Below are positions 27,781-40,289 of a stretch of 45,040 bases of DNA, one piece after another. The first letter of the stretch is position 1, and every line of letters starts with the position of its first letter. A program made the position numbers and the translations under genes. Under the pieces are notes generated by a model. That model had not been told where the DNA came from. It saw only the letters and a program-made list of their open reading frames with translations, and made no database searches. The stretch is from an uncultured beta proteobacterium (GTDB lineage Bacteria > Pseudomonadota > Gammaproteobacteria > Burkholderiales > Burkholderiaceae_C), in contig CAIWPS010000598.1 of assembly GCA_903914615.1 (NCBI GenBank), forward strand, positions 1 to 45,040, read 5' to 3'.

Positions 27781-29433
27781 ATGCACGCCACCCACGAAGT
27801 CACCAACCAGGCGCGGCCGCTCGTCGGTGCCAACCTGTTCGAGATCAACAGTCCGCTGCGCGACGCACTGGCCGTGCATGCGCCGGACCTGGACCTGTCG
27901 CGCCTGCGCGCGCTGGGTGCCGAGGCCGGCTCGCCGGCGATGCAGGCGCATGCCCGGCTGGCCAACACCCACGCCCCGGTGCTGCACACCCACGACCGCC
28001 TGGGCCACCGCATCGACGAGGTCGAGTTCCACCCCAGCTACCACGCGCTGATGGCCTCGGCGCTGCGCCACGGCCTGCACGGCTCGCCGTGGACCGGGCC
28101 GGCCGGCGCGCACATCGAGCGCGCCGCCGCCTTCATGCTCTACACCGAGGCCGAGCCCAGCGTGCTGTGCCCGGTCTCGATGACGTATGCCGTGACCCCG
28201 GCGCTGCGTGCCAACCCGGCGCTGCAGGCGGCCTGGGGCGGCAAGCTGGCCAGCCGCGACTACGACGCCCGCTTCATCCCCTTCGAGCGCAAGACCGCGG
28301 TGACGATGGGCATGGGCATGACCGAGAAGCAGGGCGGCTCGGACGTGCGCGCCAACACCACGCGCGCCGAGCCCGACGGCGACGACGCCTGGGGCGCGCG
28401 CGTGCGCATCACCGGCCACAAGTGGTTCATGTCGGCGCCGATGTGCGACGCCTTCCTGGTCCTGGCGCAGGCCGCCGGCGGCCTGAGCTGTTATTTCCTG
28501 CCGCGCTGGCTGCCCGATGGCACGCGCAACGCCATCGCCATCCAGCGCCTGAAGCACAAGCTGGGCAACCACGCCAACGCCAGCAGCGAGGTCGAGTTCC
28601 ACGGCGCCACCGCCTGGCGCGTCGGCGACGAGGGCCGCGGCGTGCCGCAGATCCTGACCATGGGCGCGATGACGCGGCTGGACTGCGCCCTGGGCACCGC
28701 CGGGCTGATGCGCCAGGCGCTGACGCTGGCCATCCACCACACGGCGCAGCGCGCCGCCTTCGGCAAGGCCTTGGTCGCACAGCCGCTGATGAAGAACGTG
28801 CTGGCCGACCTGGCCCTGGAAAGCGAGGCCGCGACGGCACTGGCCATGCGCCTGGCCGCGGCCGTCGACCGCACCGAGCAGACCGCGAACGACCACGAAG
28901 CCGTGATGCGGCGGCTGCTCACCCCGGTGGCCAAGTTCTGGATCTGCAAGCGCGGCAGCCACTTCGGCCAGGAGGCGATGGAATGCCTGGGCGGCAATGG
29001 CTACGTCGAGGAAGGCGGCGAGGGCGTGATGGCGCGCATCTACCGCGAGATGCCGCTCAACAGTATCTGGGAAGGCGCCGGCAACATCATGGCGCTGGAC
29101 CTGCTGCGCGCCTTGCGCGGCGCCGACGTGGCGCCGGCGCTGGAACATGAATTCGCCCCCGCCCGCGGCCGCCATGCCGCCTTCGACCGTGCCGCCGACG
29201 GGGTGCTGCTGTGCGTGGCCGCAGGCACCGAAGAAGGCCAGGCACGCGGCCTGGCCCGCGACGTGGCGCTGGTGCTGCAGGCCAGCCTGCTGCATCGCCA
29301 GTCGCCGCAGGCGGTCTTCGACGCCTTCTGCGACACGCGCCTGGCGCAGGCCAGCGACGTCTTCGGCACGCTGCCGGCGCGCCACGACGCCGACGCCCTC
29401 GTCCACCGAGCCTACCCCCTGGAGACCCACTGA
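27781..29433 (+). CDS. Acyl-CoA dehydrogenase, AidB-like (550 aa)
   Basis: Flavoprotein of the AidB/isovaleryl-CoA dehydrogenase branch. The N-terminal region GANLFEINSPLRDAL and the tail SIWEGAGNIMALDLLRALRG are characteristic; Glu431 sits in the WEGAGN motif. The FAD region reads GMGMTEKQGGSDVRANTT. AidB of E. coli binds DNA and has weak dehydrogenase activity; placement in a catabolic operon favours a metabolic role here. GGAGG (27772-27776) precedes ATG 27781. The stop shares one base with the next ATG (TGATG). Confidence 0.93.
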   Translation: MHATHEVTNQARPLVGANLFEINSPLRDALAVHAPDLDLSRLRALGAEAGSPAMQAHARLANTHAPVLHTHDRLGHRIDEVEFHPSYHALMASALRHGLHGSPWTGPAGAHIERAAAFMLYTEAEPSVLCPVSMTYAVTPALRANPALQAAWGGKLASRDYDARFIPFERKTAVTMGMGMTEKQGGSDVRANTTRAEPDGDDAWGARVRITGHKWFMSAPMCDAFLVLAQAAGGLSCYFLPRWLPDGTRNAIAIQRLKHKLGNHANASSEVEFHGATAWRVGDEGRGVPQILTMGAMTRLDCALGTAGLMRQALTLAIHHTAQRAAFGKALVAQPLMKNVLADLALESEAATALAMRLAAAVDRTEQTANDHEAVMRRLLTPVAKFWICKRGSHFGQEAMECLGGNGYVEEGGEGVMARIYREMPLNSIWEGAGNIMALDLLRALRGADVAPALEHEFAPARGRHAAFDRAADGVLLCVAAGTEEGQARGLARDVALVLQASLLHRQSPQAVFDAFCDTRLAQASDVFGTLPARHDADALVHRAYPLETH

Positions 29434-36778: not shown

Positions 36779-36799
36779 GCAGGGGCCGTCGGCTAAACT
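36770..36799 (+). promoter_or_regulatory. Candidate promoter of the thrS translation operon
   Basis: TTGGTC (36770-36775) and TAAACT (36794-36799) are separated by 18 bases and resemble -35 and -10 elements. Transcription would begin near 36806, about 33 bases before the leader peptide. The -35 overlaps the end of the patatin gene. The match is moderate. Confidence 0.4.
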
Positions 36800-36838
36800 C
36801 GCTCCACCCTGCAACCTACAAGGAACGGGAAAGGCATC

Positions 36839-36886
36839 ATGGTTATGACACCGCGGACTACCCGGCGCTTCTTCACCGAGGCTTGA
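36839..36886 (+). CDS. Candidate leader peptide [15 protein letters not shown] (15 aa)
   Basis: Short open frame between the patatin gene and thrS. It reads [15 protein letters not shown]-stop: four Thr and two adjacent Phe codons in fifteen. These are the amino acids charged by the downstream synthetases ThrRS and PheRS. GGGAAAGG (36827-36834) is a well-placed ribosome binding site. Its stop codon lies in the loop of a hairpin that can compete with the antiterminator (next entry). It is analogous in logic to E. coli pheM but positioned before thrS. Not seen as a protein; functional status is inferred. Confidence 0.6.
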
Positions 36887-36953
36887 TCGGTCGCGCTGTC
36901 ACACCCACTTTTCCCCTGACAAAGCGCGGCACCCCCCGCGCTTTGCTGTTTTC
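36865..36953 (+). promoter_or_regulatory. Transcription attenuator with mutually exclusive hairpins before thrS
   Basis: Segment 1:2 pairs ACCGA (36875-36879) with TCGGT (36887-36891), extendable by GCGC (36865-36868) with GCGC (36893-36896). Segment 2:3, the antiterminator, pairs CGCGCTGTC (36892-36900) with GAC-AA-AGCGCG (36918-36928), nine pairs with a two-base bulge. Segment 3:4, the terminator, is a perfect 10-bp stem (36920-36929 with 36936-36945), loop CACCCC, followed by CTGTTTTC. Segment 2:3 excludes 3:4. A ribosome stalled at the Thr or Phe codons would block segment 1 and favour read-through. The thrS ribosome binding site GGAGG (36955-36959) lies just past the terminator. Confidence 0.65.
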
Positions 36954-36968
36954 TGGAGGCACTCGAAC

Positions 36969-38876
36969 ATGGTCCACATCACGTTGCCGGACGGCTCCCG
37001 GCGGGATTTCGAAGGCCCCGTCACGGTGGCCGAGGTGGCCGCATCGATCGGCGCCGGCCTGGCCAAGGCGGCGCTGGCCGGCCGCGTCGACGGCAAGGTC
37101 GTCGACACCAGCCACCGCATCGACCACGACGCTGCGCTTGCCATCGTCACCGACAAGGACGCGGACGGCCTGGAGGTCATCCGCCACAGCACGGCGCACC
37201 TGCTGGCCTATGCCGTGAAGGAGCTGTTCCCCGAGGCCCAGGTGACCATTGGCCCGGTGGTCGAGAACGGGTTCTACTACGACTTCGCCTACAAGCGCCC
37301 CTTCACGCCCGAGGACCTGGCGGCGATCGAAAGGCGCATGGGCGAGCTCGCTGCGAAAAACGAACCCATCGTTCGCCGCGTGCTGCCCCGCGACGAGGCG
37401 GTGGCCTACTTCAAGGGCCTGGGCGAGCACTACAAGGCCGAGATCATCGGCAGCATCCCGGCCGGCGAAGACGTCTCGCTGTACCGCGAGGGCACCTTCG
37501 AGGACCTCTGTCGCGGGCCCCACGTGCCCAGCACCGGGCGCCTCAAGCACTTCAAGCTGATGAAGGTGGCTGGAGCGTATTGGCGCGGCGACCAGGCCAA
37601 CGAGCAGCTGCAGCGCATCTACGGCACCGCCTGGGCCAGCAAGGACGAGCTGCAGGGCTACCTGCGCATGCTGGAAGAAGCCGAGAAGCGCGACCACCGC
37701 AGGCTCGGCCGCGAGCTGGACCTCTTCCACCTCGACGAGTTCAGCCCCGGCATGGTCTTCTGGCACCCCAAGGGCTGGACGGTGTGGCAGGAGGTGGAGC
37801 AGTACATGCGCCGCGTCTACCGCGACAACGGCTACCAGGAGGTCAAGGGCCCGCAGATCATCGACCGCTCGCTGTGGGAGAAGTCGGGCCACTGGGAGAA
37901 GTACCGCGACGCGATGTTCACGACGGAGTCGGAAAAGCACGACTACGCCATCAAGCCGATGAACTGCCCCGGCCACATCCTGATCTTCAAGCAGGGCATC
38001 AAGAGCTACCGCGACCTGCCGCTGCGCTACGGCGAATTCGGCCAGTGCCACCGCAACGAGCCCACCGGCGGCCTGCACGGCATCATGCGCGTGCGCGCCT
38101 TCACGCAGGACGACGGCCACATCTTCTGCACCGAGGACATGATCCTGCCCGAGTGCGTGGCCTACACGGCGCTGCTGCAGAAGGTCTACAAGGACTTCGG
38201 CTTCACCGACATCATCTACAAGGTGGCCACGAGGCCGGCCGCGCGCATCGGCAGCGATGCCATCTGGGACAAGGCCGAACACGCGCTGATGGAGAGCCTG
38301 CGCCAGAGCGGCTGCGACTTCGTCATCTCGCCCGGCGACGGCGCCTTCTACGGCCCGAAGATCGAGTACACGCTGAAGGACGCCATCGGACGCCAGTGGC
38401 AGTGCGGCACGATGCAGGTCGATTTCTCGATGGCCGAGCGGCTGGACGCGGTCTACGTGGCCGAGAGCGGCGAGCGCCGCCACCCGGTGATGCTGCACCG
38501 GGCCATCGTCGGCAGCCTGGAGCGTTTCATTGGCATCCTCATCGAACAGCATGCCGGCGCGCTGCCCGTCTGGCTGGCGCCGGTGCAGGTGGTGGTGAGC
38601 TCGATCACCGACCAGCAGGCCGATTACGCCGCCGAGGTGGCGAAAATGCTGCAAAAACAAGGCGTTAGAACCCACCTCGACCTGCGCAACGAGAAAATTA
38701 ACTATAAAATCCGCGAGCATTCAATGCAGAAGGTCCCGTTCATCCTGGTCGTCGGCGACAAGGAGAAGGCAAACGGGGCCGTTGCCGTGCGCGCCCGGGG
38801 CCATCAAGACCTGGGGGTCGTGCCGCTGACCGACTTCGCAAAGAAGATCGAGAGCGACATCGCCACCAAGGCCTAA
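36969..38876 (+). CDS. thrS: Threonyl-tRNA synthetase (635 aa)
   Basis: Charges tRNA-Thr with threonine and edits mischarged Ser. Domains: TGS (about 1-60), editing domain containing [15 protein letters not shown] (about 75-90) and the [10 protein letters not shown] segment, class II catalytic core and C-terminal anticodon-binding domain. The zinc ligands are Cys333 (MNCPGH), His384 (DDGHIF) and His510 (VMLHRAI), one residue offset from E. coli Cys334/His385/His511. ATG 36969 follows GGAGG with 9-base spacing. It is the first structural gene of the operon and lies behind the leader attenuator. Confidence 0.98.
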
Positions 38877-38945: not shown

Positions 38946-39494
38946 ATCGCTACTTTCATGGACCGCCGCGTCCCCAACGCGGAACGCAAGCACAGGCTGA
39001 ACCGGGAGATCATGGCGCTGAACGTGCGCCTGAACGGGGTTGAAAACGAGCCCTTGGGCATCGTCAGCACGCTGGAGGCGTTGCGCATGGCGGGGGAACT
39101 GGACGTCGATCTGGTCGAGATCGCGGCCACGGCTGATCCCCCGGTGTGCCGGTTGATGGACTACGGCAAGTTCAAGTACCAGGAACAGAAGAAGGCGGCC
39201 GAGGCCAAGTCCAAGCAGAAGGTCATCGAGATCAAGGAAGTCAAGTTCCGTCCGGGCACCGACGACGGCGACTACCACATCAAGATGCGCAACCTGCGCC
39301 GCTTCATTGCCGAAGACGGCGACAAGGGCAAGGTCACGCTGCGCTTCCGCGGCCGCGAGATCACCCACCAGGACATCGGCATGCGGATGCTGGAACGCAT
39401 CCGCGACGAGCTGGCCGACGTGGCGATGGTCGAGCACATGCCCAAGCTGGAAGGGCGCCAGATGATCATGGTGCTGGCGCCGAAGAGGAAGTAG
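38946..39494 (+). CDS. infC: Translation initiation factor IF-3 with non-canonical ATC start (182 aa)
   Basis: Binds the 30S subunit, prevents premature 50S joining and rejects wrong start codons. The N-domain contains [20 protein letters not shown] and [20 protein letters not shown]; the C-domain contains [21 protein letters not shown] cut by a Lys-rich linker. AGGAG at 38933-38937 is 8 bases from ATC 38946 but 20 from the first ATG (38958), so ATC is the probable start, giving Met-Ala-Thr-Phe-Met-Asp-Arg. Rare starts (AUU in E. coli) allow IF-3 to repress itself. An annotation starting at 38958 would be 178 residues. Confidence 0.93.
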
Positions 39495-39515
39495 TTCGAA
39501 TTGAAGGATTTCGCT

Positions 39516-39596
39516 GCCGCGGTCTGGTCACCGCGGCTGCGAGAAGAAGCGGCTGCAGGCCAGCAAGTACGTCGGAAGCCCGGCGTCGCCTGCAGC
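39516..39596 (+). promoter_or_regulatory. Structured RNA leader upstream of rpmI, possible L20/L35 control element
   Basis: Two perfect stems lie in the 124-base infC-rpmI gap. The first is GCCGCGGT (39516-39523) with ACCGCGGC (39530-39537), loop 6. The second is GCTGCAGGC (39552-39560) with GCCTGCAGC (39588-39596), enclosing 27 bases. Neither is followed by a T-run, so they are not terminators. In E. coli ribosomal protein L20 represses rpmI by binding leader structures in this same place. The analogy is positional; no shared primary sequence was checked. Confidence 0.45.
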
Positions 39597-39618
39597 AGCA
39601 AACGAAGAAGGAGCAGTC

Positions 39619-39822
39619 ATGCCCAAGATGAAGACCAAGAAGAGCGCGGCCAAGCGGTTCCGCGTGCGTCCGGGGGGTACCGTCAAGCGCGGTCAGGCGT
39701 ACAAGCGCCACATCCTCACCAAGAAGACGACGAAGAACAAGCGCCACCTGCGTGGCCCGGCCAACGTGCACGAGACCAACATGGGGCACATCGCTGCGAT
39801 GCTGCCCTTTGCCGGCCTCTGA
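39619..39822 (+). CDS. rpmI: 50S ribosomal protein L35 (67 aa)
   Basis: Small basic protein of the large subunit. [20 protein letters not shown] and [18 protein letters not shown] are the complete family pattern. AAGGAG precedes the ATG at 8 bases. It lies 29 bases before rplT in the conserved infC-rpmI-rplT order. Confidence 0.98.
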
Positions 39823-39851
39823 CCTCACCCACAACGCACTAGGAGCAAGAC

Positions 39852-40208
39852 ATGCCTCGCGTCAAACGTGGTGTCACCGCACACGCCCGCCACAAGAAGA
39901 TCCTCGCCCTCGCCAAGGGCTACCGCGGCCGCCGCAAGAACGTCTTCCGCATCGCCAAGCAGGCGGTGATGAAGGCCGGGCAATACGCCTACCGCGACCG
40001 CCGCACCCGCAAGCGGGTGTTCCGCCAGCTCTGGATCGCGCGCATCAACGCCGCGTCCCGGGGCCTGGGGCTGACCTACAGCAAGTTCATGGCCGGCCTG
40101 AAGAAGGCCAACATCGACATCGACCGCAAGGTGCTGTCGGACATGGCCATCCACGACCCGGCTGCCTTCAGCAGCATCGTCGACAAGGTGAAGGCTCAGC
40201 TGGCTTGA
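39852..40208 (+). CDS. rplT: 50S ribosomal protein L20 (118 aa)
   Basis: Large-subunit assembly protein and, in enterobacteria, repressor of its own operon. [40 protein letters not shown] and the globular C-part [20 protein letters not shown] are standard. AGGAG (39841-39845) is 6 bases before ATG. It is followed by two hairpins and a T-run that separate it from pheS. Confidence 0.98.
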
Positions 40209-40214
40209 TCCCCT

Positions 40215-40289
40215 CGCCACCCGGCTGCGGCCGGGTGGCGACCCAAGCGCATGAAGGCCGTCACCTGTGGGCGGCCTTTTTTTGTTTTG
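40215..40289 (+). terminator. Tandem hairpins ending in an intrinsic terminator between rplT and pheS
   Basis: Hairpin one is a perfect 11-bp stem (40215-40225 with 40230-40240) with loop TGCG. Hairpin two pairs AAGGCCG (40254-40260) with CGGCCTT (40272-40278), loop 11, and runs into TTTTTTTGTTTTG. The T-run ends about 6 bases before the pheS start. It should end a fraction of transcripts after rplT and lower pheST expression. E. coli has an attenuator at this location (with pheM); here no separate Phe-rich leader peptide with a stop was found. Confidence 0.8.

Follow-up and report, generated by a model that had tools for sequence, protein, structure and literature searches.

Organization of the thrS region

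The stretch of DNA analyzed (45,040 nucleotides, the window hereafter) carries, according to protein family assignments, genes in the order thrS, infC, rpmI, rplT, pheS, pheT, ihfA. The leader described below is located between thrS and a gene labelled patatin-like in the initial annotation, the product of which found no match at 1e-10 in an NCBIfam search. A thrS-pheST operon had been proposed; both genes reside in the cluster, but infC, rpmI and rplT intervene, and given this gene order the genes for IF3, L35 and L20 separate thrS from pheST. No terminator-like site was found on the + strand between thrS and the end of rplT in the window. The leader region (36800-36968) folds better than its shuffled versions (z -3.04). 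The features of the region, with the evidence for each in brackets, are:

36794..36799, + strand, candidate -10 box TAAACT of a putative leader promoter (TANNNT in relatives)
36827..36834, + strand, leader ribosome binding site GGGAAAGG (GAGAAAGGCA or GGGAAAGGCA precedes most leaders)
36845..36886, + strand, Thr leader peptide frame of 13 codons, alternative start 36839 (GGTTATGACACCGCG or near copy in 48 of 79 loci; Thr enrichment)
36845..36860, + strand, region 1, putative sequestering strand overlapping the first Thr codons (duplex with 36888-36902, -15.0 kcal/mol)
36891..36902, + strand, region 2, antiterminator strand directly 3' of the stop codon (pairs with 36916-36929; one column covaries)
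36916..36929, + strand, region 3, terminator left arm and flank (pairing, terminator position, relatives)
36920..36945, + strand, intrinsic terminator hairpin formed by regions 3 and 4 (151 of 171 thrS upstream regions have a terminator-like site)
36955..36959, + strand, thrS ribosome binding site GGAGG (read from the sequence)
36969..38876, + strand, thrS, threonine--tRNA ligase, predicted controlled gene (TIGR00418, 712 bits)
38958..40208, + strand, infC, rpmI and rplT, probably co-transcribed (TIGR00168, TIGR00001, TIGR01032)
40214-40241, strong hairpin between rplT and pheS (sequence)
40253-40279, terminator-like site directly before pheS (sequence scan)

A conserved leader frame upstream of thrS

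A frame of 15 codons, extending from the ATG at 36839 to a TGA stop at 36884-36886 and including four Thr and two adjacent Phe codons, is directly readable in the sequence, as initially annotated. The frame itself stands, its annotated start less so: the 36839 ATG is found in 12 of 48 leaders, GGTTATGACA in all 48, and the second ATG, at 36845, is for this reason the likelier start. The frame had also been credited with a ribosome binding site of its own, and GGGAAAGG is indeed conserved ahead of ATG 36845; translation of the leader is predicted. A TANNNT sequence lies 40-56 nt ahead of the GGTTATG motif in 34 of 47 leaders (a raw count made by eye), and a consensus promoter scan of the window leader found no full promoter. 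The segment GGTTATGACACC around the leader start codon (window 36841-36853) is invariant in alignment A1, which includes 38 of the 48 leaders, and could fold into a small hairpin whose loop holds the ATG. GTTATGACACCGC recurs in several families, a conservation beyond coding need.

The 48 leaders come from a scan of one genome per species, from which the best 80 of 574 stretches were taken; two of them (L074 and L075) lack a thrS start, and the remaining 78 and the window make up the 79 loci compared. GGTTATGACACCGCG or a near copy is found in 48 loci, and 31 lack the motif. Roseateles, Acidovorax, Delftia, Comamonas, Ottowia, Rhodoferax and Aquincola are represented among the best 80 of the 574. 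In the 48 leaders the frame reads MTPRT (MTART in L078), followed by six or more further codons, and MTPRT is encoded with few base changes in 46 of the 47 leaders parsed; L034, mis-parsed because of a short upstream region, is included among the 48 in codon and stem counts. Of 399 genomes of the order that were scanned, 35 carry the pattern GGTTATGACASCGCG, each in a single copy, whereas its reversed version, used as a control, turns up in 4. Among 18 of the 35 genomes compared, the pattern lies beside thrS in 16, and the two sites away from thrS (G009, G188) are probably due to chance.

In the family sample, leaders with at least three Thr codons were found in 35 of 85 distinct loci, belonging to 16 of the 30 families of the order sampled, to which the window's own family is to be added; the other 14 families had no leader at this threshold. 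Divergent families keep Thr runs in differing surroundings (MFRTRTTTHR, MSFRTTTTGIKHFA, MFKRTTTTRISR), and the Arg-Thr core recurs along with them across differing sequence in many families. Two Ralstonia loci feature MIQAPRTTTASERQ, one Pandoraea locus MIARTFTVVKVRR, with two Thr only. Many leaders of the family sample come after a tRNA gene, and Rfam calls a tRNA in L073 and L078; as read from the sequence, the tRNA preceding many leaders would be a tRNA-Val. Forty thrS upstream regions were monitored outside the order but within the same class (which we take to be Gammaproteobacteria in GTDB usage), chosen, mostly as better matches, from 113 genomes: 19 have a terminator-like site, one has a 3-Thr frame. 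Limnohabitans and other relatives (L013, L023, L028, L056, L060) carry a GCGCGG..CCGCGC terminator before thrS without the MTPRT motif, possibly the result of decay of the switch.

Enrichment of threonine codons

Codon content was analyzed in 171 distinct thrS upstream regions, made up by the 79 best-match loci and 97 further loci, minus short or duplicate ones; among the further loci, 60 were chosen for family spread and 29 (L091-L119) are best matches. A terminator preceded by at least 100 nt is present in 141 regions. Frames with at least three Thr codons precede the terminator in 82 of the 141, vs. 8.2 in shuffles (maximum 13), and frames with at least four in 59, vs. 2.5 (maximum 4). The small frame and its Thr codons, as annotated in the window, are conserved in many relatives. 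Six of the 82 frames (L035, L036, L054, L126, L128, L173) look by eye like ends of upstream genes or like unrelated frames; they are kept in the 82/141 figure and in the equilibrium and terminator-site counts, and left out of the 76-leader model and of the peptide and family tallies. In the same 141 regions Pro (16 vs. 7.5, maximum 14), Val (15 vs. 7.3, maximum 14), Glu (8 vs. 1.9, maximum 5) and Arg (34 vs. 21.6, maximum 34) are raised too, all far less than Thr.

The enrichment stands out at the sites upstream of thrS. Frames with at least three Thr precede 53 of 86 terminator-like sites located at most 260 nt upstream of thrS, vs. 41 of 649 sites elsewhere on both strands of the best 80 of 574 loci and the window; for frames with at least four Thr the figures are 41 of 86 and 13 of 649. 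It is also peculiar to one frame: in the variable part of the 48 leaders, Thr accounts for 25.2% of the in-frame codons, vs. 1.2% and 1.8% in the other frames.

Terminator and competing stems

The terminator annotated at 36920-36945 was recovered, with a stem of 10 pairs and a loop of 6 nt; its tail, CTGTTTTCTG, makes a poorer T tract than is seen in most of the relatives compared. Terminator-like sites are found in 151 of the 171 thrS upstream regions, vs. 14-25 in five shuffle sets. The antiterminator (36892-36900 with 36918-36928) was likewise found, interrupted by a 2-nt bulge, the larger match having a duplex energy of -14.7 kcal/mol, and both in the window and in comparative pairing it shares the left arm of the terminator. 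Duplex z-scores for the pairing of regions 2 and 3 average about -0.7 and are uninformative.

One antiterminator column is paired in 22 of 30 loci (T-A 13, G-C 5, G-T 4), vs. a permutation mean of 13.5 (p 0.0004), the 30 loci having been selected because they fit the remainder of the helix, and shuffle and permutation values ignoring relatedness. Alignment A2 comprises 30 loci; MAFFT mixes two types of region 2. RNAalifold, run on 38 leaders, reports only the terminator and the small start-codon hairpin; two-sided changes affect 1 of 11 pairs. The stem annotated around the stop codon (36875-36879 with 36887-36891) behaves as expected by chance. This stem is present in the window, with 5 pairs vs. 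a shuffle mean of 4.7, but stretches of 5 or more consecutive pairs spanning the stop codon are found in 24 of the 48 leaders, vs. 26.3 in shuffles, and it was rejected as a conserved part of the leader.

The predicted sequestration of region 2 by region 1 varies among loci. In the window, gap-free complementarity between the two does not exceed chance (p 0.80); p is 0.05 or less for 15 of 42 loci of the best-80 and pattern-scan sets and for 1 of 36 other loci. The predicted helix is convincing only in loci in which region 2 features GTTCGCGC, which we take to be of the Comamonadaceae type; since it is weak outside these loci, the case for a switch is not made to rest on it.

Modelled dependence of the proposed switch on ribosome position

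Leaders were modelled by masking the RNA up to the ribosome and computing the upstream pairing of the terminator left arm before the right arm exists. The stalled state corresponds to a ribosome on the middle Thr codon, and 20 sets in which the stretch from stop codon to terminator was shuffled served as controls. In 76 leaders the left arm is paired upstream at 0.55 in the free RNA, 0.71 with the ribosome stalled and 0.55 with the ribosome at the stop codon; the values with shuffled spacers are 0.58, 0.60 and 0.55. The difference between stalled and free states is 0.157 (shuffled maximum 0.063), that between stalled and stop states 0.163 (shuffled maximum 0.077). When the six doubtful frames are included, the stalled value exceeds the stop value by more than 0.1 in 48 of 82 leaders, and falls short in 4. 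The window is a weak case, less clean than the 76-leader mean (0.78 free, 0.74 stalled, 0.49 at stop); in the model, its states differ mainly because the ribosome at the stop codon covers region 2.

At equilibrium, terminator formation averages 0.79 with the ribosome stalled, 0.92 in the free RNA and 0.93 with the ribosome at the stop codon in the 82 loci (stalled value for the window, 0.85). Because the terminator still forms at equilibrium when the ribosome is stalled, the switch must work kinetically.

Phenylalanine codons and the rplT-pheS interval

The two adjacent Phe codons had led to the proposal of a combined attenuator sensing both Thr and Phe, since pheST follows further along the cluster. 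One or two Phe codons are indeed found in the leaders of 7 of the 10 best-matching loci (L003-L012), and at least one in 21 of the 48 leaders of the window's type; moreover, Phe-Phe frames of any kind are over-represented (10/141 vs. 2.65, maximum 6), and there is a slight excess of frames with two or more Phe (19/141 vs. 12.8, maximum 18). But Phe-Phe occurs in 3 of the 48 leaders, frames with at least three Phe in 1 of 141 regions, vs. 3.0 in shuffles, Phe is irregular in divergent leaders, and in the variable part of the 48 leaders Phe makes up 5.9% of the codons in frame, vs. 2.3% and 3.8% in the other frames. The Thr excess in frame has no comparable Phe counterpart, and combined sensing was rejected as a general reading; as an account of the leader it is unlikely. 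Comparison of the leaders indicates that Phe is not a conserved control codon. A role for Phe restricted to a lineage is kept, at low probability, because of the excess of Phe-Phe frames and the Phe codons of 7 of the 10 best-matching leaders.

In the window and 43 relatives (44 loci) the interval between rplT and pheS looks terminator-like by eye, and it features AAGGGCTAG..CTAGCCCTT in many loci of the Comamonadaceae type. Of 39 terminator-like sites located before pheS, 3150-3500 nt downstream of the thrS start, none is preceded by a frame with three Phe. The cluster is probably segmented ahead of pheS. As a terminator-like site lies before pheS both in the window and in relatives, there is no need for the thrS leader to serve pheST as well, and Phe control of pheST, if needed, could act elsewhere.

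Interpretation of the leader

A conserved leader, enrichment of Thr codons, a terminator, an antiterminator pairing and a dependence on the modelled ribosome position were all computed. The reading proposed is a Thr-specific ribosome-mediated transcription attenuator of thrS-infC-rpmI-rplT, to which a probability of about 0.8 is assigned on comparative sequence grounds. The attenuator annotated before thrS is thus well supported by the comparative data, though not the Thr/Phe combination nor the stem at the stop codon.

Three further explanations were weighed. The leader RNA might act as an operator to which threonyl-tRNA synthetase or tRNA-Thr binds, the small frame being incidental. Autoregulation of thrS is known in E. 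coli (cited in PMC2965389), and the start of the leader is conserved in nucleotides, third codon positions included; the enrichment of Thr is however specific to one frame and recurs in differing surroundings, and a terminator ahead of thrS fits transcription attenuation, all of which makes an operator quite improbable. The near constancy of MTPRT in the parsed leaders, encoded with few base changes, and the recurrence of the Arg-Thr core in many families would also suit an arrest peptide sensing Thr, as opposed to a mere series of Thr codons. This is very improbable, as MTPLT, MVPPT or MRPPT replace MTPRT in f23, f3 and one f10 locus, and the conserved bases may also serve pairing with region 2. 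Hardly any credit is given to a terminator of the upstream gene accompanied by a chance frame: an upstream gene or a tRNA gene does end shortly before in many loci, but the frames are in excess relative both to the remaining terminator-like sites of these loci and to shuffles.

In the Thr-specific attenuator proposed, the RNA would start a few bases past the candidate -10 box of the putative promoter and carry the 13-codon leader (36845-36886), the translation of which would make transcription responsive to Thr. When charged Thr-tRNA is scarce, the ribosome would stall at the Thr codons and occupy region 1, so that region 2 (36891-36902) could pair with region 3; formation of the terminator would be hindered, and RNA polymerase would enter thrS-infC-rpmI-rplT. 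When Thr-tRNA is plentiful, the ribosome would reach the stop codon and cover region 2, and the terminator (36920-36945) would form. The terminator would form also if the leader is untranslated, region 1 pairing then with region 2. More tentatively, and at somewhat less than even odds, a Thr-only attenuator may be widespread in the order, synthesis of IF3, L35, L20 and ThrRS following the charging of Thr-tRNA instead of feedback through a ThrRS operator as in E. coli, and the near-invariant GTTATGACACCGC segment having a further function beyond its codons.

Relation to known regulatory systems

The thrL attenuator of the E. coli thrABC operon features a Thr-rich leader peptide, with Thr and Ile codons, and a terminator/antiterminator switch. 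The leader described here resembles it in both respects, but thrL serves a biosynthesis operon and draws on Ile codons as well, whereas the present leader would control thrS and shows no Ile enrichment (1/141 vs. 2.0). In the pheM attenuator of E. coli pheST, Phe codons are located between rplT and pheS. The two systems would share leader-peptide attenuation of an aminoacyl-tRNA synthetase in corresponding gene clusters; here the codons are for Thr, and the leader precedes thrS. E. coli thrS is controlled by a translational operator, ThrRS binding its own mRNA. The gene is the same and feedback from ThrRS supply would operate in both cases, but here a leader frame and a terminator are found.

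Gammaproteobacterial pheST is described as being under a classical attenuator in PMC1262725, which also lists classical attenuators before the trpS and leuS synthetase genes of Streptomyces. The latter likewise precede synthetase genes, but deal with other amino acids in another phylum. Synthetase genes attenuated through cognate codons are therefore already known (pheST, trpS, leuS; PMC1262725). At thrS itself, E. coli uses another mechanism. Searches of an open-access library found no account of thrS attenuation in betaproteobacteria; Panina 2001 and Vitreschak 2004 are the likeliest sources of an earlier prediction. The window leader and those of seven relatives match no Rfam 15 family at curated score, and matches below the gathering threshold in relatives were taken as chance. 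If the reading is correct, much of the neighbouring order would rely on transcription attenuation at thrS, the supply of Thr would gate IF3, L35 and L20, and a testable regulatory RNA, absent from Rfam, would reside in many betaproteobacterial genomes. A tRNA-SeC, not reported by the Rfam gathering search, is called by ARAGORN at window 28503-28584 (minus strand).
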